Both the position numbers and the translations under genes were made by a program. The notes under the pieces are model-generated. The model was not told where the DNA came from and made no database searches. It saw only the letters and a list, made by a program, of their open reading frames with translations. A DNA stretch of 46,644 bases from a virus, in IMG/VR virus record IMGVR_UViG_3300044639_000272, positions 1-46,644 of that record. One strand, 5' to 3'. This document shows positions 6,362 through 30,285 of this stretch, one piece after another. Every line of letters starts with the position of its first letter. Positions within the stretch are counted from its first letter, which is position 1.

Positions 6362-7064
6362 ATTGTTCTGGGCGTTTCTCTAGTTTAAATCTACACTTAA
6401 TGATTTCCCCGAACATCAAGCTAATTAGACTATTGGTACTTTCTTCATCGTAGTCAATGAAAAAATGACTGGAACAATAATTTGTATACCAATATTTATA
6501 TTGTCGTTGATCACCGGTTAACCAACGAGTTAATGCCGGGCTGGGAACTATTACGGTATCAGTATTTTCATATCGGTTAAAGAACTTCAATAAATCTTCT
6601 TTGAATTTATCCGATACTCTTTTGGATTTTAGATAAATTCGATACTTGTGTTTAGGTTCTTTGACAAAATACCTAGTACTTTCAGGTGTACTGGTGTCAA
6701 CTTCCGTATAGTCAAACTCACAACCAAAGTTTTCTACTTGTTTTAGGAAATTTAAATCATTAGAAAATACGGCAGCAGTATTACCTTCCATGCGTATAGT
6801 GTGTGTGCGGTCTTTACCTGTGGGCAAATACTGCATCCAAGATAAAAACTTCTTAATACTATCTACCTTAGCATTTTTCCATCTAGCATTTGTTTTAGAA
6901 AGGTATTCGTCAATGTCATCTGCTGATTTCACAAACCAGCACATTGTTATACCTTCACAATAAATCCTAGCCCTATAATTATATTTACCGTAGTAAAGAC
7001 TACCCCTAGTATCAATATATTCTATGCCATCATTGCGGATCGGTGTTAACTGTAATAATCCCAT
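6360..7064 (-). CDS. Unknown 234-residue protein, coupled to the ClpA-type gene
   Basis: There is no recognisable catalytic motif. The sequence is rich in Tyr, Lys, Arg and Trp, with a C-terminal half containing KYRIYLKSKRV, VPSPALTRWL and SSHFFIDYDEES, which look like ordered core segments. The start ATG at 7064 follows GGGGAAG and lies 35 bases inside the end of the ClpA-type gene, so translation is probably coupled. This makes a working link with the unfoldase, for example as adaptor or substrate, conceivable, but nothing in the sequence proves it. No membrane segment is seen. The stop overlaps the late element of the next gene. Confidence 0.75.
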   Translation of the reverse strand: MGLLQLTPIRNDGIEYIDTRGSLYYGKYNYRARIYCEGITMCWFVKSADDIDEYLSKTNARWKNAKVDSIKKFLSWMQYLPTGKDRTHTIRMEGNTAAVFSNDLNFLKQVENFGCEFDYTEVDTSTPESTRYFVKEPKHKYRIYLKSKRVSDKFKEDLLKFFNRYENTDTVIVPSPALTRWLTGDQRQYKYWYTNYCSSHFFIDYDEESTNSLISLMFGEIIKCRFKLEKRPEQ

Positions 7065-9312
7065 CTTCCCCTACCTCTGCTATTAATTTAGGTTGTACAT
7101 CAAAAACAATTTCATCGTTCTCAATGCGTGTAACAATTACACTATTTTTAATCTTTTCAAATATGATTTTCTTACTCAATGGTACTCTAATCAATGAATC
7201 AATCTTGCGTGATAAAGGTCTAGCACCCATTTTGCTATCATATCCTTTTTCAGCTAGATATTCTACGACAGGTTCACTTAATTGTAAACTAATATCGTGT
7301 GTATCTTTTAATGATTTCTTCAAGTCATCGGTAAATTTAATAACGATTTTTTTGATTGCTAGCATATCTAGTTTACCAAACTTACAAATCAAGTCAATGC
7401 GATTCCTGAATTCAGGCTTGAAGAAATCCTTAAGTGCTTTATCATCTTCGCCGGTACGTTCTTGATTACCAAAGCCGATTTGATTGCGCTCACTATCACT
7501 TGCGCCCAAGTTACTAGTCATAATAATAATACAGTTTTTAGCATTAACTTCTTTGCCATTAGTACCGGTGACACGACCGTCATCAAGCAATTGCAAGAAG
7601 ATATTAAAAATGTCAGGGTGTGCTTTTTCTACCTCGTCAAATAGTAGAATACTATGTGGGTTCTTACTTAGGTCATTAATAAGTTTACCACCACCTAAAC
7701 TACCCTCACCGAATCCTACATATCCAGGGGGCGCCCCCAACAATGCTGACACATTAAATTTCTCTGAGTACTCACTCATATCATATTTCAACAATGTCAT
7801 ATCAAGGTTCTTGCTTAGTAGTCGAGCCAATTCTGTTTTACCAGTACCAGTTGGACCTAAGAATAAGAAACTTGCCATTGGCTTAGTTTGAGTTCCGATA
7901 CCTGCAAAACTTACATAGATACGTTCAAGTACTTTATCTACTGTTTCCTCTTGTCCGTATAATCTATCTTTGATATTACTCTCCAACGCATGAATTCTAT
8001 CATAGTTATCATCTTTGAGTTTATCTGCGGGCACGCCAGCAATTCGTTCTACTTGTTCGTAAATCAATTCTTTAGTAATGTCTGCACCTTTGTTTTCCAA
8101 TACACGTTGTTTGGCACATGCCGCATCTAACAAATCAATTGATTTGTCAGGATTCTTACGGTCATGAATATAACGTGTGGCACTTTCTACTGCGGCACTG
8201 ATTGCATCATCGGTAATATTCACATTATGAAATTCATTAAGTCTAGTACTCAACCCAGCTAAGATTTTGATTGTGCTTTCAGTTGATGGTTCATCAATGC
8301 TAACCCTGTAGAATCTACGCATCAACGCACGATCTTTTTCAAAACTCTCGTAGTATTCTTCCCACGTTGTACTAGCAATAACTTTTAGATTACCTTTAGT
8401 AATTGCAGGTTTAATCATATTAGCAAAGTCTACTGAGCCATTACTAGCACTACCAGAACCCTTCATGGTATGTGCTTCGTCAATAAACAATATTGCTTTT
8501 TTCTTAGCTACCAATGCTTCTAGTACTGCTTTGATTTTTTCTTCAAAGTCTCCCCGATACTTACTACCTGCAAGTAGATTACCAACTTCAATACTGTAAA
8601 CTTCGTGGTCTAGTAAGAACTCAGGTACATTCCCATCAGCAATCTGCTGTGCAAGTCCTTCAGCAATAGCAGTCTTACCAACGCCCGGATCACCTACCAT
8701 CAATACATTTGATTTAAATCGTTTAGCCAACACATTGATAATATCATTCAATTCTGCACTACGACCAATCAACGGATCTAGCTTATCAGTACGTGCTAAC
8801 TCGCTTAGATTAATAGTGTACTCATCTAAGATTTCATTAGCCTGACTATCAGTCAACTTAGTTGGGGTGTCACTATTTTTATAATGTTTTTGCCAATATG
8901 GTACGAATTCATTTTTGTTCAAGCCATACTTTAGTAAGAAATAATGAGCATGACTATTAGTCTCTGCTGAAATACTTAGATACAAATCAATAGTAGTTAC
9001 AACTTTCCTACCTGTAAATAGTACTTGAGTGATACTACGATTCATCACACGTTCTAATGCATTAGTTTTGCGTGGTTGAATTTCTTGTCCTACAGTATTA
9101 GTATGTTCTATTGCTCGTAGATTATCAACATAGTTAACTAATTCCTTAGTCATTGTTTCTGTATCAACTCCGTAATTATCTAAGCATTTCTTAAATGGTG
9201 CGTGTGTTACCAATGATAGTAATAGATGTTCTATGGTGCAATATTCATGGCTACGTGCTTTGGCTAGATTAACGGCTTGTTCAATGATAACCTCAATTTC
9301 AGGACTATTCAT
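7030..9312 (-). CDS. clpA: ClpA-type AAA+ protein unfoldase
   Basis: At 760 residues it matches the length of bacterial ClpA. An N-terminal Clp repeat domain (about residues 1-145, with CTIEHLLLSLVTH) is followed by two AAA+ modules. The first has Walker A GDPGVGKT near residue 207 and Walker B ILFIDEAH; the second has Walker A GPTGTGKT near 487, Walker B LLFDEVEKAH and the sensor region TSNLGA. Near residue 610 the motif QIGFGNQ lies where ClpA carries its IGL loop and ClpX its IGF loop, the docking element for ClpP. There is no long middle coiled coil of the ClpB type. The expected role is ATP-driven unfolding of proteins, feeding the host ClpP peptidase. No ClpP gene is in the window. AAGGAA precedes ATG. 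Confidence 0.93.
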   Translation of the reverse strand: MNSPEIEVIIEQAVNLAKARSHEYCTIEHLLLSLVTHAPFKKCLDNYGVDTETMTKELVNYVDNLRAIEHTNTVGQEIQPRKTNALERVMNRSITQVLFTGRKVVTTIDLYLSISAETNSHAHYFLLKYGLNKNEFVPYWQKHYKNSDTPTKLTDSQANEILDEYTINLSELARTDKLDPLIGRSAELNDIINVLAKRFKSNVLMVGDPGVGKTAIAEGLAQQIADGNVPEFLLDHEVYSIEVGNLLAGSKYRGDFEEKIKAVLEALVAKKKAILFIDEAHTMKGSGSASNGSVDFANMIKPAITKGNLKVIASTTWEEYYESFEKDRALMRRFYRVSIDEPSTESTIKILAGLSTRLNEFHNVNITDDAISAAVESATRYIHDRKNPDKSIDLLDAACAKQRVLENKGADITKELIYEQVERIAGVPADKLKDDNYDRIHALESNIKDRLYGQEETVDKVLERIYVSFAGIGTQTKPMASFLFLGPTGTGKTELARLLSKNLDMTLLKYDMSEYSEKFNVSALLGAPPGYVGFGEGSLGGGKLINDLSKNPHSILLFDEVEKAHPDIFNIFLQLLDDGRVTGTNGKEVNAKNCIIIMTSNLGASDSERNQIGFGNQERTGEDDKALKDFFKPEFRNRIDLICKFGKLDMLAIKKIVIKFTDDLKKSLKDTHDISLQLSEPVVEYLAEKGYDSKMGARPLSRKIDSLIRVPLSKKIIFEKIKNSVIVTRIENDEIVFDVQPKLIAEVGEDGIITVNTDPQ

Positions 9313-9333
9313 ATTGTTTCCTTGTTTCTATGA

Positions 9334-9341
9334 TATTTACT
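9334..9341 (-). promoter_or_regulatory. Weak late promoter element AGTAAATA
   Basis: It matches 6 of 8 bases of the T4 late consensus, overlaps the stop of the DnaJ-like gene, and would leave a 16-nt leader with AAGGAA before the ClpA-type ATG. Confidence 0.3.
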
Positions 9342-10131
9342 TGCGTTTATATTGCAAAATGCTGTCAGTTATACGACTGTCTATTATATCAGGGATAAAG
9401 GGTTTAAGCAAGATATATTGGTCACCAAAGCTCCCATTAAATGGTAATCCCTCGCCAGCTAATCTCAGTTTACTTCCGGGTTGAGATTTTTCCGGCACAG
9501 TAACATCCAACACTTTACCCGAAATTGTATTAAAGTTAAAGGTAGAGCCTACGATCAACTCGAATATATCAATTTCATGTACTGAGTATAAATGAGGACC
9601 TTCTCTTTCAAATCTATTGTGAGGAATTACTCTGAATTCTACCAGTAGTATTCCATCTTTAATAAGATTGTCATATCGCATAGATGCACCGTCATCTACT
9701 CCTTTGGGAATTTGAATTTTAATAATTTCAGGACCTTGAGGTGAGTTGAATTGTAGTACTTGTTCATCCCCTCTATATACTTGTTCTAATGTAACTTGAA
9801 CGGTAGTCCTATAATTCGGTCTCATATTTCTATGTTGTTGACTAAACATCTGACCAAAAATGTCATTTACATTAAAACCATTCATATGAAACTGGAAGCC
9901 TCCTGGCATGCCTCCTGGCATACCGCCGCCAGGGCCAAAAGGATTTGGATTATCATATTGTTGTTTTTTTCCAGGGTCGCTTAGTGTTTCATAAGCCTGC
10001 TGAATCTTTTGAAATTTAGCAGTATCTCCACCTTTGTCAGGATGGTGAATACCTGCCATTCGTCTGTATGCTTTTTTAATATCGTCTGTTGTGGCGTTTT
10101 TGGCAACGCCTAATGTTGAGTAGTGATCCAT
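9337..10131 (-). CDS. DnaJ-like co-chaperone, zinc-finger-free (CbpA type)
   Basis: An N-terminal J domain carries the essential HPD tripeptide (MAGIHHPDKGGD, HPD near residue 32), which stimulates DnaK ATPase. A Gly/Phe/Met-rich linker follows (GPGGGMPGGMPGG, then NDIFGQMF). The rest is the C-terminal beta-domain of type II J-proteins (IQIPKGVDDGASMRY, HNRFEREG, PGSKLRLAGEGLP), without the CxxCxGxG zinc finger. The protein would recruit or redirect host DnaK; no DnaK is in the window. At 264 residues it is somewhat shorter than CbpA, because the last segment is cut short. There is no clear Shine-Dalgarno site, and ATG follows a 40-base imperfect hairpin. Confidence 0.9.
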   Translation of the reverse strand: MDHYSTLGVAKNATTDDIKKAYRRMAGIHHPDKGGDTAKFQKIQQAYETLSDPGKKQQYDNPNPFGPGGGMPGGMPGGFQFHMNGFNVNDIFGQMFSQQHRNMRPNYRTTVQVTLEQVYRGDEQVLQFNSPQGPEIIKIQIPKGVDDGASMRYDNLIKDGILLVEFRVIPHNRFEREGPHLYSVHEIDIFELIVGSTFNFNTISGKVLDVTVPEKSQPGSKLRLAGEGLPFNGSFGDQYILLKPFIPDIIDSRITDSILQYKRK

Positions 10132-10175
10132 AATATTGATTATAGCACGTTAAGTGTGCTAAGTCAATATTTATT
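10132..10175 (-). promoter_or_regulatory. Late promoter AATAAATA overlapping a long hairpin before the DnaJ-like gene
   Basis: The element at 10168-10175 overlaps the putative holin stop. An imperfect inverted repeat runs from 10132 to 10171 (AATATTGA/TCAATATT outer arms, TTAGCAC/GTGCTA inner arms) and ends one base before the DnaJ ATG. There is no T-run, so a terminator is unlikely. Confidence 0.4.
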
Positions 10176-10788
10176 AAGCTACGCCGGCTACTTTTTCTTT
10201 TGTACGACCGTATGCAGCGATACCAAGAACAGCACCCATAGCAATATGATATAGTCCTGCACCTTGTAGTGTTAATGGTTGCCATTGACTAGTTACTGAG
10301 CCTTTGCTTAATGCCTGTAGTAATGACCATAATACAGGGAATATAACAAAGTCACAAGTGCATGTCAACATGTAGATCCAACCCATCATTGGACGCATTT
10401 TTTTATTGATCCAATCTGTTGCATCTTTGTCTAATGCTACAGTTGATTCTGCCCCTCCTTTTACCGCGGCTTCTGCTCCTGCTGTAAGGTTTGTGACTGG
10501 TTGTTGATTTCCAATGTTGCTTCCGCTTCCCAATGATTGTGATCCAAAACTGTTTGTAACTGGGGGTACTGCACCAAAACCCGGACTAGTTGTACCGAAT
10601 CCTGTTGACACAGGCGCTCCAAATGCTGAAGGACTAGCTGATGTGCTGGTTGTTGCATTTGAACCACCGAATGAACTACCTTGAGGGAATTGATTTACAT
10701 TAGGATCACCTGCTAATGCATCATGGTGTTCATCATCGGTTGCAGTAGGAACTTCTTGTCCTGCTTTTTTTGCTAGTAATGTAGCCAT
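10174..10788 (-). CDS. Putative holin with FG-rich N-terminal extension
   Basis: The protein has 204 residues. The C-terminal 80 residues contain two hydrophobic segments (about residues 133-160, GWIYMLTCTCDFVIFPVLW, and about 178-195, GLYHIAMGAVLGIAAYG) flanked by charged residues (KKMRP before, RTKEK after). This arrangement is like the phage holin family with three short membrane segments that is also found in gene transfer agents. The first 125 residues are low-complexity Ser/Thr/Gly/Pro/Phe with repeated FG pairs (SAFGAP, TGFGTT, PGFGAV, NSFGSQ). The role would be opening the inner membrane for an endolysin. The GH19 endolysin lies 10 kb away. It is one base from the upstream gene. Confidence 0.55.
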   Translation of the reverse strand: MATLLAKKAGQEVPTATDDEHHDALAGDPNVNQFPQGSSFGGSNATTSTSASPSAFGAPVSTGFGTTSPGFGAVPPVTNSFGSQSLGSGSNIGNQQPVTNLTAGAEAAVKGGAESTVALDKDATDWINKKMRPMMGWIYMLTCTCDFVIFPVLWSLLQALSKGSVTSQWQPLTLQGAGLYHIAMGAVLGIAAYGRTKEKVAGVA

Positions 10789-10789
10789 A

Positions 10790-11329
10790 TTATAATCCTG
10801 CCTTTGCTATAAAATCTTTCAACATACTATCTGGTTGACTGTAAATCTTTTTTTGATTCATTCCAGATAAATTACGCATCTCATTTAAATCTGTTTCTTT
10901 TCTTTTACGATATTCAGCTGGGCTTAATATCATAACAGATTTCAATTGTGCTGGGTCACACTCATATTGATTATCTTCGTAATTAATTGTCCAGTCTTTC
11001 ATTGGTAGATCAGTCAATGTTTGCATATCACTAACTAATTCACATATTCTTTCAGGTACGGTTGTTCTTCTATCCATTTCTACGAATACCAAATATTTTC
11101 CAGAACTTATTTCACCATCACTTACTTGAGCATCTAATACCCAATCATATCCACGTTCAAACCAATCAACTAAATCTTCACCAACTTGATTACCCTTAAC
11201 TGTAAATGCTAATGTCACTATCTCATCATCGTCACCCATTTTAGCGGCGTATTCATCAATTGTTATCTCTGGCATTATTTGATTTACTAAATCATGGTAA
11301 TCAAAACCTTCATTAAGAATATTAGACAT
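10790..11329 (-). CDS. Unknown acidic 179-residue protein
   Basis: No known motif is recognised. The first 120 residues look like an alpha/beta domain (IVTLAFTVKG, KYLVFVEMDRR, MKDWTINYED). The C-terminal 50 residues are helical and basic (PAEYRKRKETDLNEMRNLSG). It overlaps the upstream 207-residue gene by TAATG, so the two are probably made together and may form a complex. The stop at 10790 is one base from the next ATG. No membrane segment or signal peptide is seen. Confidence 0.75.
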   Translation of the reverse strand: MSNILNEGFDYHDLVNQIMPEITIDEYAAKMGDDDEIVTLAFTVKGNQVGEDLVDWFERGYDWVLDAQVSDGEISSGKYLVFVEMDRRTTVPERICELVSDMQTLTDLPMKDWTINYEDNQYECDPAQLKSVMILSPAEYRKRKETDLNEMRNLSGMNQKKIYSQPDSMLKDFIAKAGL

Positions 11330-11952
11330 TACATGCCTCCCATTGCCGGGGGTTGTCCGGGTGCCGGTGGCATCCCTCCCATAGCACCCATATCTGGGCC
11401 CATACCTAGAGTTTGATTATCTTCAGTTTCACTACCTTCAGTATCTAAATCATTTTCATATGCTGAATCTAATTCATCTAAGTCAATGTTTTGACCAGCT
11501 AAATCAATACTTCCTTCACGGATATCATTCATCAAGTCTTTTGGCATTTCAACACGAATAAGCCAAATTTCACGTTCTATCATCTTAGGGTAATGAGTTC
11601 CGGGCTTATAGTCGCTTGGATTTTTGATTTCAATAGGAACTTTGATTTTTGTCTTTTTGAATTTAATATTGCATCCTACAGATAATAATCTTTTAGCACC
11701 ACTTGGATCGGGCATAAGTTTTAGTGGATACATAAAGGTACAGTCAACAGTGTATCTTTTAACATTAGGTCCAGCAACTAATTCACCCAATTCCCAGTTA
11801 CGGAATGCATATAGGTCGCTTTCATCCAAAACTCGTTCAAAATCAAGCAAGGTGCTCATTGATCCATCACTAGTGTAGATGCCCTTAATAGTACTAACGA
11901 TACTCTCAAAATTGATATCGTCAAAGAATTCGGATGCTTTTATTTTGCTCAT
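11329..11952 (-). CDS. Unknown 207-residue protein, leaderless-type start
   Basis: No catalytic motif is recognised. A central beta-rich part (about residues 65-130) contains KRYTVDCTFMYPLKL and GCNIKFKKTKIKVPIEI. The C-terminus is acidic, then a Gly/Met/Pro-rich tail (GMGPDMGAMGGMPPAPG) that looks disordered. An ATG at 11967 would add five residues but lies within the late promoter element; ATG 11952 is preferred because GATAAATA ends exactly 5 nt before it. There is no Shine-Dalgarno site. The late element argues for a virion or assembly role, which is inference. Confidence 0.75.
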   Translation of the reverse strand: MSKIKASEFFDDINFESIVSTIKGIYTSDGSMSTLLDFERVLDESDLYAFRNWELGELVAGPNVKRYTVDCTFMYPLKLMPDPSGAKRLLSVGCNIKFKKTKIKVPIEIKNPSDYKPGTHYPKMIEREIWLIRVEMPKDLMNDIREGSIDLAGQNIDLDELDSAYENDLDTEGSETEDNQTLGMGPDMGAMGGMPPAPGQPPAMGGM

Positions 11953-11957
11953 AGTTG

Positions 11958-11965
11958 TATTTATC
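11958..11965 (-). promoter_or_regulatory. Late promoter GATAAATA, leaderless geometry
   Basis: It matches 7 of 8 bases of TATAAATA. In T4 the start site is 6 nt after the element, which here is the A of the ATG at 11952. A second copy lies upstream at 12014-12021. Confidence 0.55.
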
Positions 11966-12013
11966 ATATAATGCTATTTGTATAAGCATTTTAAATTCTG
12001 AAGATTAGCCTAA

Positions 12014-12021
12014 TATTTATC
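12014..12021 (-). promoter_or_regulatory. Second late promoter element GATAAATA
   Basis: It lies 56 bases before the element at 11958-11965, in the divergent gap between the 207-residue gene and phoH. RNA started here would carry a leader with a 6-bp AATGCT/AGCATT hairpin. Confidence 0.4.
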
Positions 12022-12078
12022 AAAAAACTTTAAGTAAAGACTATGCTACTGTGACACTGGACAATGCCTTTAAATAAC

Positions 12079-12123
12079 ATTGAGTTTTATGAGAACTCAT
12101 GCTCTACAAAGGAGAATATTTTG
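12079..12123 (+). promoter_or_regulatory. phoH leader: small hairpin, strong RBS and TTG start
   Basis: TGAGTT and AACTCA (12080-12098) can pair around a 7-nt loop a few bases upstream of AAAGGAG (12108-12114), which is followed by TTG at 12121. This decides the start codon. No convincing sigma-70 promoter was recognised between 11968 and 12079. Confidence 0.5.
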
Positions 12124-12903
12124 AGCAAAAGAAAGACAGGCGCTTTACGCAATCAAGAACAAGACACTAGATACTCACACAGCAAAAAACACGATTCGCA
12201 CACATTCTACGTAAAGGAAAATAAAACAATCAACTTTGATCAAAGTCGTATTAAATTAGATAAAAGACCTATTCAATTAATACCAAAATCGGTTAACCAA
12301 GAAAAATACATACTCGCACTGCTCGACCAAAATACAGATATTGTTGTGGTCAGTGGTCCAGCAGGTACTGGTAAAACATACCTAGCAATGCTGGCTGCTA
12401 TTAAAGCACTAAAAGCAGGAGAGGTTGATCGTATTATTCTTACTAGACCAGCCGTTGGAGTAGATGATGAAAAGCATGGATTCTTACCCGGAGATTTAAA
12501 TCAAAAAATGGAACCGTGGACAAGACCTTTGTTAGATGTTTTACGTGAGTATTATACGGTACGGGAAATCGCCCACATGCTAGAAGAACAAATAGTCGAA
12601 ATTGCACCCCTAGCATTCTGTCGAGGTCGAAACTTTAAAAATAGCTATATCGTATTAGATGAAGCGCAAAATGCAACACCTGGTCAACTCAAGATGATTA
12701 TGACTAGAATCGGTGTCGGTAGTAAGATTGTAATTACTGGCGATGTTGAACAAGCCGATAGAAAAACAGCCGACAATGGGCTACTAGACTTACAAAATCG
12801 ATTGAGGAAGGGGGTGATTCCAGGGTTGCAGATATGCCACTTTGAACTGAAAGATGTTCAAAGACATAAAATCATAGAACATGTACTAAACTTGTACAGT
12901 TAA
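12121..12903 (+). CDS. phoH: PhoH-like ATPase
   Basis: The protein has 260 residues. It contains the PhoH core: Walker A GPAGTGKT near residues 79-86, RIILTRPAVGVDDEKHGFLPG, FCRGRNFKNSYIVLDEAQN (Walker B with DEAQ) and IVITGDVEQADR. The family has ATPase and probably RNA helicase-like activity; it is common in marine T4-like phages. TTG at 12121 is preferred as start because AAAGGAG ends 6 nt before it. The in-frame ATG at 12064 has no Shine-Dalgarno site, and its reading would include the hairpin and ribosome site. The first 45 residues are basic and probably disordered. It is the only + strand gene between the left edge and 36211, and it has its own terminator. Confidence 0.93.
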   Translation: MSKRKTGALRNQEQDTRYSHSKKHDSHTFYVKENKTINFDQSRIKLDKRPIQLIPKSVNQEKYILALLDQNTDIVVVSGPAGTGKTYLAMLAAIKALKAGEVDRIILTRPAVGVDDEKHGFLPGDLNQKMEPWTRPLLDVLREYYTVREIAHMLEEQIVEIAPLAFCRGRNFKNSYIVLDEAQNATPGQLKMIMTRIGVGSKIVITGDVEQADRKTADNGLLDLQNRLRKGVIPGLQICHFELKDVQRHKIIEHVLNLYS

Positions 12904-12928
12904 AAAAAGGGGCATTGCCCCTTTTTTA
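12902..12928. terminator. Bidirectional rho-independent terminator
   Basis: GGGGC and GCCCC pair around ATT (12909-12921), flanked by seven A on one side and six T on the other. It serves phoH from the left and the minus strand gene ending at 12929 from the right. Confidence 0.9.
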
Positions 12929-13186
12929 TTAGTCATTGTCAGCAAATTGTTTTTCTATCCGATCAATCGCATCAGGATAAACTTGATAGAAGTAATTACG
13001 TATTCTATCCCAATCGGTATCTAATTTTTTACCTTGGATTACACATTTCACTACTTTCTTTTCTTCAAAATCCATAATCACATTACAGGTTTGATGGTCC
13101 TTATCCTTAATAGTTTTTGAAATCTCTACTTGTTCGTCAATCTGTCCGGTTGCTTTAAACAAGTAAGTAATTAATATATATCTCAT
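12929..13186 (-). CDS. Unknown 85-residue protein downstream of the clamp loader
   Basis: It starts MRYILITYLF and reads as a small alpha/beta protein with a charged middle (DFEEKKVVKCVIQGKK) and an aromatic helix near the end (DWDRIRNYFYQVYPDAI). It lies 4 bases after the gp44-like gene, the place where T4 has the small clamp-loader subunit gp62, but it is less than half the length of gp62 and no similarity is evident. It ends at the terminator shared with phoH. The function is unknown. Confidence 0.75.
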   Translation of the reverse strand: MRYILITYLFKATGQIDEQVEISKTIKDKDHQTCNVIMDFEEKKVVKCVIQGKKLDTDWDRIRNYFYQVYPDAIDRIEKQFADND

Positions 13187-13190
13187 AATT

Positions 13191-14114
13191 TTATCCTGTA
13201 AGTTCTATTAGTGTAGCAGCCAAACTAATCTCAGGTATCCCGACTAAACTTAAGTTAGCCAAACCATTGCGAATGACAATAATACTAGCATCACGCTTTT
13301 CATTTGTACTTCCCCACAATTCTAAATTATTGTACATCCAGCGATATAAATCTTCTAGTCGGCTAGGATACAAACTTAGATATTGTAACAGTATCTGTCG
13401 TCCTTCATAAATCTTACCACTCTTAAACAATGAGGTTGCTTCTACTAGCAATTCATCTTCACTGTTAGTTTGATTAGAAGTTGATATTAATTTACCACTA
13501 CTACTATTTACTTGTAATTGATTTAAACACTTACGCAAATCTGGATATGTAGCACTTACATAGTTATCCAATGCATCTAAATCAAACTCAATATTCTCAG
13601 TTACCAACACAGTAGCCGCACGTGCAGTAAATTCTGTCTTATCTGTTTTACTGATGTGAAATTCATGGCATCTGCTCTTAAGTGCAGGGATAATTCTATG
13701 TTGATAATTACAAGTCAAAATGAATCGTGCAGTCATATGATATGCTTCCATATCATTACGCAATGCTGCCTGACCTGCGGGCGACAAGTAATCTGCCTCA
13801 TCTAGTAACACAACTTTAAACTTACCGAAAGGCATAGTCTGTACAAATCCAACAATACGATCACGGACAACATCAACACTATTTTCACGACTAGCATTGA
13901 TTTCTAGAATATCATATTCTTCAATACCAAGTTCATTGATAAGTACTTTGGCAAGAGTAGTTTTGCCAGTACCCGGGTCACCGCTTAACAATAGATGAGG
14001 AATGCTTCCATCTTTGATCCAACCCTCTACTTGTTGTTTTTGATTCTCATTAACAAAAACATAATCTTCTACTGTTTTAGGGCGATACTTTTCTACCCAA
14101 AGTTGATTCTTCAT
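13191..14114 (-). CDS. 44: Clamp loader large subunit, gp44-like AAA+ ATPase
   Basis: At 307 residues it is close to T4 gp44 (319). It starts with the RFC-type box LWVEKYRPKTVEDYV, then Walker A GDPGTGKTT (about residues 45-53), Walker B VVLLDEADYLS near 100, and the SRC sensor motif (LKSRCHEF) near 146, the set seen in clamp loaders. C-terminal helices (from residue 220) would form the collar. In T4, gp44 with gp62 loads the gp45 sliding clamp for replication and, with gp33/gp55, for late transcription. The late promoters in this window fit such a system. It overlaps the upstream BI-1 gene by TAATG. Confidence 0.93.
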   Translation of the reverse strand: MKNQLWVEKYRPKTVEDYVFVNENQKQQVEGWIKDGSIPHLLLSGDPGTGKTTLAKVLINELGIEEYDILEINASRENSVDVVRDRIVGFVQTMPFGKFKVVLLDEADYLSPAGQAALRNDMEAYHMTARFILTCNYQHRIIPALKSRCHEFHISKTDKTEFTARAATVLVTENIEFDLDALDNYVSATYPDLRKCLNQLQVNSSSGKLISTSNQTNSEDELLVEATSLFKSGKIYEGRQILLQYLSLYPSRLEDLYRWMYNNLELWGSTNEKRDASIIVIRNGLANLSLVGIPEISLAATLIELTG

Positions 14115-14803
14115 TATTTTCTATCACCAAAAAGTTGCAATAAGTTTATAAAAATGTTAATAAAGTCCATATATAGTGTCAATGCACCTCGAACTTCTGA
14201 AACATCCGAATTTTCACTGATACTCAATTCTTCACGGATTTGCTGAGTATCATAGGCAGTTAATCCCAAAAAGATTATAATAGCTAATGCACTAATGACC
14301 ATTTGCATAACTGTACTACCAATGAATATATTAATTATACTAGCAATTACAATTGCAATCAAGCCTACAAACATAAATTTTCCCAGGCTGTCTAAACTCT
14401 GTTTAGTAAAGTACCCATAGAAACTCATAGTACCAAATAATATTGCCGCGCCCATAAATGCACTAACAATACTGCCCATAGTGAACACTGCAAAGATCAT
14501 TGCAAAACTCAATCCCATTAATGCCGCAAAGCCATGCAAGCATAACTGGGCAACACCTTTACTAGGATTATTACCTAGCACATAACTGACACCAAAGATT
14601 GCCGCTAGTGGAGCAAAGATCACAATCCACTTTAGTACACCTGTAAAAAAGAACTGCAATAGTTCCGGTGTAGTTCCTACCCAGTAACTAACTAGCATTG
14701 ATACAATAACTGCTAATGACATGTGTTTGTACACACTTACCATACTGGTATTAATTTCGTCTGCTGAACGATATGCGGGTGCATATAAATTTTCATAAAT
14801 CAT
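14114..14803 (-). CDS. Bax inhibitor-1 / YccA family membrane protein
   Basis: The protein has 229 residues. After a 25-residue N-terminal part, about seven hydrophobic segments can be counted (starting LAVIVSMLVSYWVG, VLKWIVIFAPLAAIF, and so on). The family signature LGLTAYDTQQI lies near residues 179-189, and the mid-protein pattern HGFAALMGLSFAMIF is also typical. Bacterial members such as YccA bind the FtsH protease in the inner membrane and slow proteolysis; others affect calcium flux. A phage copy could protect phage membrane proteins or delay lysis; that is inference. It overlaps gp44 by TAATG and lies 2 bases after the 91-residue gene. Confidence 0.88.
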   Translation of the reverse strand: MIYENLYAPAYRSADEINTSMVSVYKHMSLAVIVSMLVSYWVGTTPELLQFFFTGVLKWIVIFAPLAAIFGVSYVLGNNPSKGVAQLCLHGFAALMGLSFAMIFAVFTMGSIVSAFMGAAILFGTMSFYGYFTKQSLDSLGKFMFVGLIAIVIASIINIFIGSTVMQMVISALAIIIFLGLTAYDTQQIREELSISENSDVSEVRGALTLYMDFINIFINLLQLFGDRK

Positions 14804-14805
14804 TT

Positions 14806-15081
14806 TTATTTCCTTAACATTTCATAAGTTATAATGTGTGCGATACTTTGACCCAAATCTTGGTCACTATTGATGATATGCAATCTACGGTCGTTTCTGT
14901 CATTCTTTTCATCATACTGACTATACTGCATAACATATCCACCGACAGCACTCAGAATAGTAAAATTCATACCATTTCCCTCAATTTCCCTATCTCTACT
15001 TGAGATTGAACGGATGGATGATGCCTCTGTCTCATCTTCTTCAAAAATCCAATTGCGTAATTTACGTCTTAACCAATTCAT
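14806..15081 (-). CDS. Unknown 91-residue protein
   Basis: The N-terminus is basic and aromatic (MNWLRRKLRNWIFEEDE), like an amphipathic membrane-surface helix, and is followed by a Ser/Arg-rich linker. The second half (MNFTILSAVGGYVMQYSQYD and RLHIINSDQDLGQSIAHIIT) looks like a small beta-hairpin/helix domain. It overlaps the upstream gene by 4 bases (ATGA) and precedes the BI-1 gene by 2. No function is recognised. Confidence 0.75.
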   Translation of the reverse strand: MNWLRRKLRNWIFEEDETEASSIRSISSRDREIEGNGMNFTILSAVGGYVMQYSQYDEKNDRNDRRLHIINSDQDLGQSIAHIITYEMLRK

Positions 15082-15611
15082 TCTTCTTCCTTTTTACCTT
15101 TTTTTGGTGTATCAAACGGCCACTTAGCAGTTTCTACAGTAGACGCAAGTTCGGGTCCAAATGGCCACTGTGTGGGTTTTTCTAGCATTGCTCTTGCCTC
15201 AGCATCATTAGAACTTTCAACAACTTCATCGGTGTCTACATTCGTAATGATTAAATCGCAATCAATGATCATTTCACATTCATCTTGACTCCAACCATGT
15301 TCTTCTAAGTCAAGCCAACTGTTACCTTCTTCAAAGAATTCTTCTAGCCATGCTTGTGTTTCTTCATCACACTCATCCATGTCGTGTTCTTCCCAACACC
15401 CGTCGTTGGTTTCAACAAGTTCAGCCTCGTATCCGCAATTGTAGATATCTACTCCGGATTCAATGGCCGGTGGATTGTCATCGTCTGTATAAACAGTAAA
15501 TTCTCCCCAGCGCCAGCCAGTTTCGATCATTACTTTGTTATCATCTTTCGTAAAGTAATTACGTTCAATGATTGATTTTTTCCATTCAGGTTTAACACTC
15601 CACGTTGCCAT
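15078..15611 (-). CDS. Unknown very acidic 177-residue protein
   Basis: It begins MATWSVKPEWKKSIIERNYF. ATG 15611 is chosen over the alternative start 48 bases upstream because GGAG lies 8 nt before it. The protein is strongly acidic and rich in Trp and Glu/Asp (for example CWEEHDMDECDEETQAWLEE), then ends with a basic KKGKKEEE tail. Such highly acidic phage proteins may mimic DNA or bind basic host proteins, but no motif supports a specific role. It lies one base downstream of the co-chaperonin gene and overlaps the 91-residue gene. Confidence 0.75.
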   Translation of the reverse strand: MATWSVKPEWKKSIIERNYFTKDDNKVMIETGWRWGEFTVYTDDDNPPAIESGVDIYNCGYEAELVETNDGCWEEHDMDECDEETQAWLEEFFEEGNSWLDLEEHGWSQDECEMIIDCDLIITNVDTDEVVESSNDAEARAMLEKPTQWPFGPELASTVETAKWPFDTPKKGKKEEE

Positions 15612-15612
15612 T

Positions 15613-15981
15613 TTAATCTCCTTTGTCTGAAATGTATTCGTCTTGCATAGGTTCGTCACTAACTAGCAGTATATCATTAGAATCAACTCTACGCAACGTC
15701 TTTTTACCCTCTTCATCTTCAATATCGATTCCTCTGGTCCATCTACCGTGAGCAATACAAATATATTGACCAATTTTCAAATCACCGTCATACTCAGGTC
15801 CAAACTTATAAATCTGTGCCCAACGAGGACGAATGCCCGTACCCTTCATATCATCATTCAACAAAATAATACCACTTGTAGTAATACGTTGGTCAAAATG
15901 CATATCAGTTACAACAATATAATCCTTAATAGGCTTAAATTGTTCTTTATTAAATTTATGTGCTTCAAATGCTAATTTCAC
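15613..15981 (-). CDS. 31: GroES-like co-chaperonin, gp31-like
   Basis: At 122 residues it is between GroES (97) and the slightly longer T4 gp31 (111). The core starts FKPIKDYIVVTD and includes a flexible segment QRITTSGIILLNDD (residues 31-44), whose GIIL fits the hydrophobic tripeptide of the GroES/gp31 mobile loop that docks on GroEL. The strand pattern YKFGPEYDGDLKIGQYICI and VDSNDILLVSDE at the end match the GroES barrel. The expected role is to replace host GroES on GroEL so that the larger phage capsid protein folds. The start is GTG: GTGA overlaps the stop of the upstream gene and GAGG lies upstream. Confidence 0.8.
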   Translation of the reverse strand: MKLAFEAHKFNKEQFKPIKDYIVVTDMHFDQRITTSGIILLNDDMKGTGIRPRWAQIYKFGPEYDGDLKIGQYICIAHGRWTRGIDIEDEEGKKTLRRVDSNDILLVSDEPMQDEYISDKGD

Positions 15982-16289: not shown

Positions 16290-16811
16290 CTATTTTAAAA
16301 ATTCATCTATAGATAAATCATAATATATGCTATTTATTCTATGGATCCCTATCAGATATAGAACATAACTGCTCACACTACTACCCCTACCCACTCCCCA
16401 AACAATATTATGTTCACGCATCATATCCACTAGATACTTACAATAACGCAATAATGGGAACATATCACGTTCTAAGAATAGAATTAATTCACTTCCAGTT
16501 CGTTGTAGTTCGTCATCCGTTTTACACTTATCTAAAACATATTTGGCTATGTCTAACTCATTGTATTCTTTTGGCATGTACCAATTCTGTTGATTCATTA
16601 TATCAAAATCTTCAACGTTCATATCTAATTCAGAATATGATATCATATTGGGAAATACAGAGTCCATTGGAGTTATTAACTCTAATTCAGGATTATTATG
16701 TATCGGTGATTCTACTATTGCATTTTTAACAGTCACTGTGGGGTCGCTAAGGAATATATGACATAGGTCATTTTCGTTTAGAATTTGTCTACTGTACTTG
16801 TCAATTCGCAT
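16290..16811 (-). CDS. DNA polymerase III alpha-like fragment without catalytic aspartates
   Basis: The last 45 residues read WGVGRGSSVSSYVLYLIGI (about residues 136-154) followed by HRINSIYYDLSIDEFLK. This is the same order as in bacterial DnaE, where a GPGRGSGAGSLVAY motif and a DPL-x-LLFERFL stretch come just before the catalytic PDFDxDF. The protein stops exactly there, at 173 residues, so the aspartates are absent. The helix before the motif (FPLLRYCKYLVDMMREHNI) also matches the DnaE layout. It cannot be an active polymerase on its own; a nucleotide- or DNA-binding role is possible. ATG 16811 is preferred to TTG 16817. There is no Shine-Dalgarno site, and a sigma-70-like promoter ends 5 nt before ATG. 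Confidence 0.65.
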   Translation of the reverse strand: MRIDKYSRQILNENDLCHIFLSDPTVTVKNAIVESPIHNNPELELITPMDSVFPNMISYSELDMNVEDFDIMNQQNWYMPKEYNELDIAKYVLDKCKTDDELQRTGSELILFLERDMFPLLRYCKYLVDMMREHNIVWGVGRGSSVSSYVLYLIGIHRINSIYYDLSIDEFLK

Positions 16812-29820: not shown

Positions 29821-29849
29821 GCTATTTGTCCATAATAGCAGTATTTATT
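29820..29849 (-). promoter_or_regulatory. Late promoter AATAAATA followed by a hairpin at the gp16 start
   Basis: The element is at 29842-29849 and overlaps the gp4 stop. TGCTATT (29834-29840) and AATAGCA (29820-29826) are perfect 7-bp arms with a 7-nt loop, and the right arm runs into the ATG. There is only a weak GGA ahead of ATG. Confidence 0.5.
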
Positions 29850-30285
29850 ACTTACGCCTACCGTTATAAAACAAGTCATCCTCTGTGATTACACGGAATG
29901 TAAATCCATATTGTTTACAGTATGCTTTAGCACTAGCCCACTTGGCGTGATTAATAGCAACAATTGCTATATCTCTTGCGCTAGCCTTTCTACTTTCAAT
30001 CAGGCTTTGTTTTTTAGGTTTGATCTCTACAATTTCAGCAAACTGTTTTCCAAACTTGTTTTCATATAGTATAAAGAAGTCTGGAATATAATTAGTAACT
30101 TTACCTGTTAAAGGATGACGATAGGGGATACGTATTGATTCGCTTGCCCATTTAATTACATTCTTGTTGCCGTCACAGAATTGCATGAATGTGAATTCCC
30201 ATCCACTACGATATCTAGGTGTATGATTACCAATATACTTATCAGGATTTCTAGGCACAAATATGCCCTGTGCAAAGTTTGCCAT
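29848..30285 (-). CDS. 4: Head completion nuclease, gp4-like
   Basis: At 145 residues it is close to T4 gp4. It shares long stretches with it as recalled: MANFAQGIFVPRNPDKYIGN, then YRSGWEFTFMQFCD, IKWASESIRIPYRHP, TNYIPDFF and EIVEIKPKK. PD at 68-69 and E-x-K at 87-89, with Glu 30, make a PD-(D/E)xK nuclease active site of the TnsA kind. In T4 gp4 acts at the end of head filling, before tail joining. The start is next to the stop of the upstream 121-residue gene. Confidence 0.95.
   Translation of the reverse strand: MANFAQGIFVPRNPDKYIGNHTPRYRSGWEFTFMQFCDGNKNVIKWASESIRIPYRHPLTGKVTNYIPDFFILYENKFGKQFAEIVEIKPKKQSLIESRKASARDIAIVAINHAKWASAKAYCKQYGFTFRVITEDDLFYNGRRK

Follow-up and report, generated by a model that had tools for sequence, protein, structure and literature searches.

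Chaperone and Clp protease genes and an optional Bax inhibitor-1 slot in a probable lineage of giant T4-related freshwater phages

Parts of the bacterial protein-quality-control system have been described in jumbo phages. ClpX, ClpA, ClpB, ClpP, ClpS and DnaJ were listed for the Agrobacterium phage Atu_ph07 by Attai et al. 2018 (PMC6102473), and Iyer et al. 2021 (PMC7824862) found Hsp10, DnaJ, ClpA/X/P/S and Hsp20 across jumbo phages, with Hsp10 and DnaJ interpreted as recruiters of host HSP60 and HSP70. Here we describe genes of this kind in the IMG/VR virus record IMGVR_UViG_3300044639_000272, a stretch of 46,644 bases referred to below as the window, which represents only part of a larger genome. 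The genes encode a ClpA-type unfoldase, a J-protein (DnaJ), a GroES-like co-chaperonin and a Bax inhibitor-1 (BI-1) family membrane protein. Taken as a whole, we consider it probable that the window comes from a lineage of giant (about 350 kb) T4-related freshwater phages, that the studied region is part of a late gene block, and that the lineage carries much of its own quality-control machinery as a late-expressed folding and degradation kit. The four genes are:

7030-9312, minus strand: ClpA-type AAA+ unfoldase of 760 amino acids, with Clp_N, two AAA domains, both pore loops and the ClpP-docking tripeptide I612-G-F614 (IGF)
9337-10131, minus strand: J-protein of 264 amino acids, with an HPD-containing J domain, a G/F-rich linker and DnaJ_C, without zinc finger (CbpA or class B type)
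14114-14803, minus strand: BI-1 family membrane protein of 229 amino acids, an optional one-gene cassette (Pfam Bax1-I, 5.6e-52)
15613-15981, minus strand: GroES/gp31-type co-chaperonin of 122 amino acids, with a disordered mobile loop and a hydrophobic SGIIL motif

These identities and positions had been proposed in a sequence-only reading of the window, and were confirmed by matches in Pfam, PHROGs, NCBIfam and PDB/fold searches, less firmly for the GroES-like protein than for the other three. The unfoldase matched Pfam AAA_2 (4e-53), phrog_4871 (5e-236) and the NCBIfam ClpA model TIGR02639 (6e-235), and E. coli ClpA aligned with it from end to end (6.7e-179), placing the phage IGF opposite the E. 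coli IGL loop. Its score of 781.8 bits is below the NCBIfam ClpA equivalog cut-off of 993, and by sequence the protein is a divergent ClpA-type unfoldase, uncertified as a bacterial ClpA equivalog. The J-protein (Pfam DnaJ 9e-22, DnaJ_C 3e-24) combines an HPD J domain with a C-terminal substrate domain and lacks the zinc finger, as in the class B or CbpA type, and the HPD motif was kept in 97/97 DnaJ sequences. For the GroES-like protein, sequence matches were obtained to phrog_931 (4.8e-12) and phrog_3188 (2e-4) and, weakly, to GroES chains in the PDB (E = 0.0014), while the Pfam scan gave no match. The best hit in the fold search was T4 gp31 (1g31), with a probability of 1.00 but an E-value of only 0.014 and 15% identity over the match. 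The predicted mobile loop corresponds to a low-confidence segment of the model at residues 39-49 (predicted local distance difference test, pLDDT, <50 at 39-43 and 45-49), and a GroEL-binding-type motif, G-[IL]-[IVL]-[LI], is conserved across 67 GroES-like sequences; the window protein has both the disordered loop and the hydrophobic motif.

The best named relatives of the window are Atu_ph07 and the Sinorhizobium phage Phosso. The best large stand-in is the IMG/VR record G005 (367,104 bp), which has a ClpA 78% identical to that of the window and carries nearly every window gene in the same order at 264.6-311.8 kb. Whole-record searches were made in 13 large relatives (G001-G011, Atu_ph07 and Phosso, each of at least 170,986 bp). 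ClpA, DnaJ, GroES, ClpP and ClpS were each present in 13/13 of these, ClpX in 11 (ClpX zinc finger search) and a full DnaK in five, and GroEL, FtsH and GrpE were found in none. The lineage has GroES, DnaJ and ClpA as conserved core genes, and the pairwise identities of the three correlate at 0.84-0.89, a descriptive value since the genome pairs are non-independent. DnaJ was located immediately upstream of ClpA on the same strand, with a median gap of 27 bp, in all 73 loci collected with ClpA alone as the query. The adjacency was also seen in 22/22 whole records, counting Phosso where the two are one gene apart, and it is retained in Atu_ph07 despite a DnaJ identity of 38%; DnaJ-ClpA is a fixed gene pair in the lineage. 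The gene sitting between the two in Phosso encodes a peptide deformylase (L083:18907-19425).

The adjacency of DnaJ and ClpA, the presence of GroES, DnaJ and ClpA in all large relatives and the conserved docking motifs support selection on a chaperone/protease theme in the region. It could be argued that DnaJ, ClpA and GroES are late genes, each useful by itself, that do not cooperate and are held in place by the collinearity of the family, since the entire window is collinear with G005 and neighbours will then persist regardless of function. However, the surroundings are rearranged in the distant Atu_ph07 and Phosso, where GroES is 11-25 kb away and unrelated genes are inserted, yet DnaJ and ClpA are still adjacent or one gene apart, and we regard gene order as the sole explanation as rather unlikely.

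ClpP, ClpX, ClpS, Hsp20 and DnaK were not found within the window, an absence that is an artefact because the window is only a 46.6 kb fragment. In G005, the genes ClpX-DnaK-Hsp20-ClpS-ClpP are located at 203.7-211.9 kb, which is 53-61 kb beyond the left end of the window. This order is common to G004, G006 and G011, and G008 and G009 have the same order minus DnaK. DnaK and ClpX of G005 exceed the NCBIfam equivalog cut-offs, and the catalytic Ser, His and Asp of the phage ClpP are intact in 28/28 aligned sequences. Together in one phage genome, clpA, clpP and clpS make up a ClpAP-ClpS set of the Atu_ph07 type in 13/13 large relatives. With phage ClpP and ClpS in all of these and the catalytic residues of ClpP intact, the window ClpA most likely pairs with a phage ClpP, as judged from the sequences. 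That host partners are missing, as the sequence-only reading had stated, is thus literally true of the window and, for GroEL and FtsH, of every relative searched, but it does not hold for ClpP and ClpS or, in five relatives, for DnaK; the redirection of host machines that had been deduced from their absence is likewise unsupported.

Some variation was observed among these genes. DnaK, situated between ClpX and Hsp20, is itself optional (L252:8409-10340 compared with L269 and L270, and the locus without DnaK in G008 and G009). A second, short J-domain protein of about 196-211 amino acids is encoded by G005 (G005:C1:158133-158723, in L249), G004, G006 and G011, that is, by 4/5 DnaK-bearing records and by none of the other records searched. 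G001, G010, G016 and Phosso (W02) each encode a second ClpP-like protein, which is divergent (E about 1e-27 to 1e-30) and perhaps a prohead protease. ClpA, ClpP, ClpS and ClpX are each present in two copies in G004 (524,565 bp), which therefore probably represents two related genomes joined in assembly.

ClpA might instead serve virion assembly rather than proteolysis, its main activity being disaggregation or remodelling by translocation, carried out together with the J-protein and DnaK in the manner of ClpB. Partnership with a J-protein is typical of ClpB, head and holin genes lie within the late string, and Iyer et al. 2021 (PMC7824862) suggest that phage ClpA and ClpX act in virion assembly or as translocases. 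Against this, 97/97 ClpA sequences keep the ClpP-docking IGF unchanged, although the residue two places further on varies freely; Walker A and B of both AAA domains are invariant or nearly so in these sequences. The best-scoring family is moreover ClpA, not ClpB, and ClpP and ClpS are always present in the large relatives, making a mainly remodelling function quite unlikely.

The timing of expression was approached through promoter-like motifs. In G005, the octamer GATAAATA was located at most 120 bp upstream of an open reading frame in 31/40 cases, whereas scrambled octamers with the same base content gave 0-6 of about 26-42. The boxes of this type in the window are:

11958-12021, minus strand: pair of late-promoter-like GATAAATA boxes, at 12021-12014 and 11965-11958, preceding the head-head-holin-DnaJ-ClpA string
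10168-10175, minus strand: AATAAATA box, 44 bp upstream of DnaJ
16331-16338, minus strand: AATAAATA box, 58 bp upstream of the string formed by the 15978-16280 gene and GroES

Such boxes are a T4-type late-promoter-like signal. The motif NATAAATA was present upstream of the 11329-11967 gene in 40/52 relatives (shuffled mean 2.9), upstream of DnaJ in 40/81 distinct relatives (shuffled mean 3.5, maximum 7) and upstream of the GroES string in 50/60 relatives (shuffled mean 4.1); its conservation was not seen immediately ahead of BI-1 or of the clamp loader in the relatives compared. The canonical T4 late box TATAAATA showed no enrichment in the window; gene starts are marked instead by the variant GATAAATA. 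Scans for sigma-70 promoters and terminators gave nothing above chance. We infer that the GroES and DnaJ-ClpA strings are probably expressed late. Since the second box (11965-11958) overlaps the listed start of the 11329-11967 gene, that gene may begin a few codons later.

Late boxes fit virion production better than an early evasion of defences. This argues against a counter-defence function, in which the set would degrade or disarm host immune proteins or quiet DnaJ-dependent sensors, as does the core conservation of the genes, which is unusual for anti-defence genes. In favour of such a function, phage sensing by bNACHT25 is reported to be mediated by DnaJ (PMC12169576), the authors of the moraphage study (PMC12619734) suggest this role for phage chaperones, and ClpS could supply N-degron substrates. 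On balance, we hold counter-defence to be improbable.

In the reading that we prefer, a late folding and degradation kit, the GroES-like protein would recruit host GroEL late in infection for the folding of capsid protein, as gp31 does, and virion and host proteins that are unfolded or have aggregated would be handed by the J-protein to DnaK of the host or the phage. ClpA, with its IGF loop on phage-made ClpP and partly supplied by phage ClpS, would degrade proteins that cannot be folded, and BI-1 would be a separate membrane accessory acting on its own. Several points weigh against this picture. The window genome is incomplete, so that its ClpP, ClpS and DnaK are deduced from relatives rather than seen. 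The late boxes are consensus matches only, in relatives that share descent, and the adjacency of DnaJ and ClpA could be carried-along gene order. The IGF tripeptide marks a ClpP-docking loop but is silent on whether the partner is the phage or the host ClpP, and the GroES assignment leans on weak sequence and fold scores.

The four genes are arranged in two separate strings, DnaJ-ClpA and GroES-BI-1, which flank the oppositely oriented PhoH, an arrangement overlooked in the sequence-only reading. Among the genes and features separating them are, besides small genes:

10174-10788, minus strand: holin-like gene (gene transfer agent holin type with three transmembrane segments, under the Pfam cut-off), co-transcribed with DnaJ-ClpA as judged by position
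10790-11967, minus strand: two head-structural genes (10790-11329 and 11329-11967; phrog_13138 and phrog_12928) at the start of the DnaJ-ClpA string
12064-12903, plus strand: PhoH-like ATPase that divides the two strings (Pfam PhoH, 1.5e-70)
13191-14114, minus strand: T4 gp44-type clamp loader (phrog_168, 6e-74)
14804-14805, no strand: upstream edge of the BI-1 slot, which abuts window position 14115 in the sister contigs L084 and L085

Beyond the clamp loader and PhoH, the window encodes a tail sheath, a tail tube and a tail-sheath-stabiliser. A TnsA-like endonuclease-fold protein (29848-30285; PF08722, 2.7e-19) is located amid the tail and head genes and is possibly a head-completion nuclease. 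An acidic 193-amino-acid gene (15078-15659) is also mobile: its G005 homologue is 35 kb off, and homologues adjoin BI-1 at several otherwise unrelated loci (L014, L015, L026 and L067).

BI-1 behaves differently from the core genes. The sister contigs L084 and L085, with a ClpA 98% identical to that of the window and 93-95% identical DNA over the BI-1 flanks (blastn), lack exactly BI-1 and retain the rest of the flanks. The junction reads ...GAAATGTTACGCAAATGAAGAATC... in the sister phages and ...GAAATGTTAAGGAAATAAAAATG[BI-1]AAATAATGAAGAATC... in the window, and in phages without BI-1 the start of the clamp loader overlaps the stop of the 14806-15081 gene. Of 62 loci that were fetched with ClpA and whose stretch also carries GroES, 14 have BI-1 in the slot. 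When mapped on a ClpA tree with 59 rows, the presence of BI-1 required 14 changes, as compared to 15.0 with shuffled labels, and at least 11 changes were forced by well-supported branches. Likewise, BI-1 divergence correlates with none of ClpA, DnaJ and GroES (-0.08 to -0.19): BI-1 is 83-86% identical where ClpA is 42-64% identical, yet 71-77% identical in G005 and G009, where ClpA is 74-78% identical. The approximately unbiased (AU) test rejected a grouping of the G020 BI-1 with its ClpA sisters (p = 0.0002), and was only borderline when the wider ClpA clade was imposed on BI-1 (p = 0.057). BI-1 is an optional gene that is exchanged independently of GroES, DnaJ and ClpA, and the exchange would need no more than simple recombination, in co-infected cells, between the conserved genes on either side.

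Relatives of BI-1 were found on at least 597 stretches in IMG/VR; among the matches listed, the neighbours are mostly unrelated to those of the window, and ClpP is often no more than about 4 kb from BI-1. Outside the group of the window, many phages have BI-1 0-4 kb downstream of ClpP, and in L059 and L062 it follows 44 bp after ClpP. The site downstream of ClpP is possibly an older home of the gene. A recent transfer from host to phage was rejected, full-length matches in one scan of genome contigs being mostly at most 46% identical. A recent spread from phage to phage was also rejected: fourfold-degenerate sites are saturated, at 31-54% identity, so that the exchanges compared there are old. 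The difference between the window and L084 in the presence of BI-1 is recent.

The family assignment of BI-1 is clear, with 177 bits against a cut-off of 34.1 for Pfam Bax1-I, and the PHROGs search gave no family for it. The nearest solved structure is that of B. subtilis YetJ, a pH-dependent calcium leak, and the conserved Asp pair at the positions aligned to YetJ is present in 72/72 and 70/72 sequences. The sequence-only reading had made it a YccA-type brake on FtsH, which was rejected with a score of 43.8 bits against the YccA equivalog cut-off of 353, and a YetJ-like ion-leak or stress protein is more likely. We tentatively suggest, as a possibility to be entertained, that BI-1 is a fast-moving one-gene cassette among distantly related giant freshwater phages, passing scarlessly in and out of one fixed site flanked by a small gene and the clamp loader. 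Its protein, under strong selection, would be a membrane-acting accessory, for example blocking membrane-damage or abortive-infection defences, with a value set by the current host.

These data bear directly on the proposal of a single host-takeover module, in which each of the four proteins docks on one host machine (ClpP, DnaK, GroEL or FtsH). The four genes are at most 9 kb apart in the window, G005, G021 and G022, and GroEL and FtsH are never phage-encoded in the relatives searched. But ClpP is phage-encoded in 13/13 and DnaK in 5/13 large relatives, the genes form two strings with PhoH opposed between them, and BI-1, which does not fit the YccA model, is absent from the sister phages, scattered like random labels on the ClpA tree and elsewhere 30-65 kb from ClpA. 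A takeover module is very improbable, being already largely refuted by the larger relatives, and the four-gene version is rejected owing to BI-1. What survives is the part that concerns GroES, DnaJ and ClpA, which co-vary; of the check on presence and order that the sequence-only reading had proposed, presence is borne out for these three in the 13 large relatives and order for DnaJ-ClpA, kept at 73/73 loci, but not for the optional BI-1. Independent loss in relatives, which that reading had itself named as evidence against a module, is what was observed for BI-1, gained or lost independently of the others.

If the preferred reading of a late folding and degradation kit is true, one lineage of very large phages brings both arms of bacterial protein quality control, helpers for folding on the one hand and a peptidase of its own with two ATP-dependent protease motors on the other, and is still reliant on the host for GroEL, GrpE and FtsH, giving a sharp and testable boundary between what is brought and what is borrowed. 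The BI-1 slot provides natural pairs of near-identical phages with and without the gene, so that the use of a phage BI-1 is directly testable.

Among described systems, Atu_ph07 is similar in that ClpX, ClpA, ClpP, ClpS and a ClpA-adjacent DnaJ are present in one jumbo phage along with a GroES homologue, in the same order GroES-clamp loader-PhoH-head-head-DnaJ-ClpA. It differs in having ClpB and in lacking BI-1 and DnaK, and its paper (PMC6102473) is silent on GroES; the window lineage has DnaK in some relatives and the exchangeable BI-1 slot. The moraphages (Perez-Hernandez et al. 2025, PMC12619734) are likewise large freshwater phages with ClpA, DnaJ, DnaK and Hsp20, but they infect Bacteroidota and their paper does not mention GroES or BI-1, whereas rhizobial phages are the nearest to the window lineage. 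T4 gp31 is a phage GroES-fold protein with a mobile loop, and is the best fold match of the window protein, which also matched phrog_931; the identity is only 15% over the match, and GroEL binding by the window protein is a prediction. The J-domain protein of RB43 (Perrody et al. 2012, PMC3486835) is another phage J-protein expected to act on DnaK, but it is an ORFan that stabilises sigma-32, whereas the window encodes a complete J-protein of class B type that forms a pair with ClpA. B. subtilis YetJ and E. coli YccA belong to the same Bax1-I family as the phage BI-1, which shares the Asp pair aligned to YetJ but forms a clade of its own, the nearest bacterial relatives found being those of Alphaproteobacteria, mostly no more than 46% identical over the full length. 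No report of a phage BI-1 was found in the open-access literature searched. Given the published Clp/DnaJ sets (PMC6102473, PMC7824862, PMC12619734), the set in the window is a variation on a known theme, of which the BI-1 slot is the new part and the rest is already known in kind.

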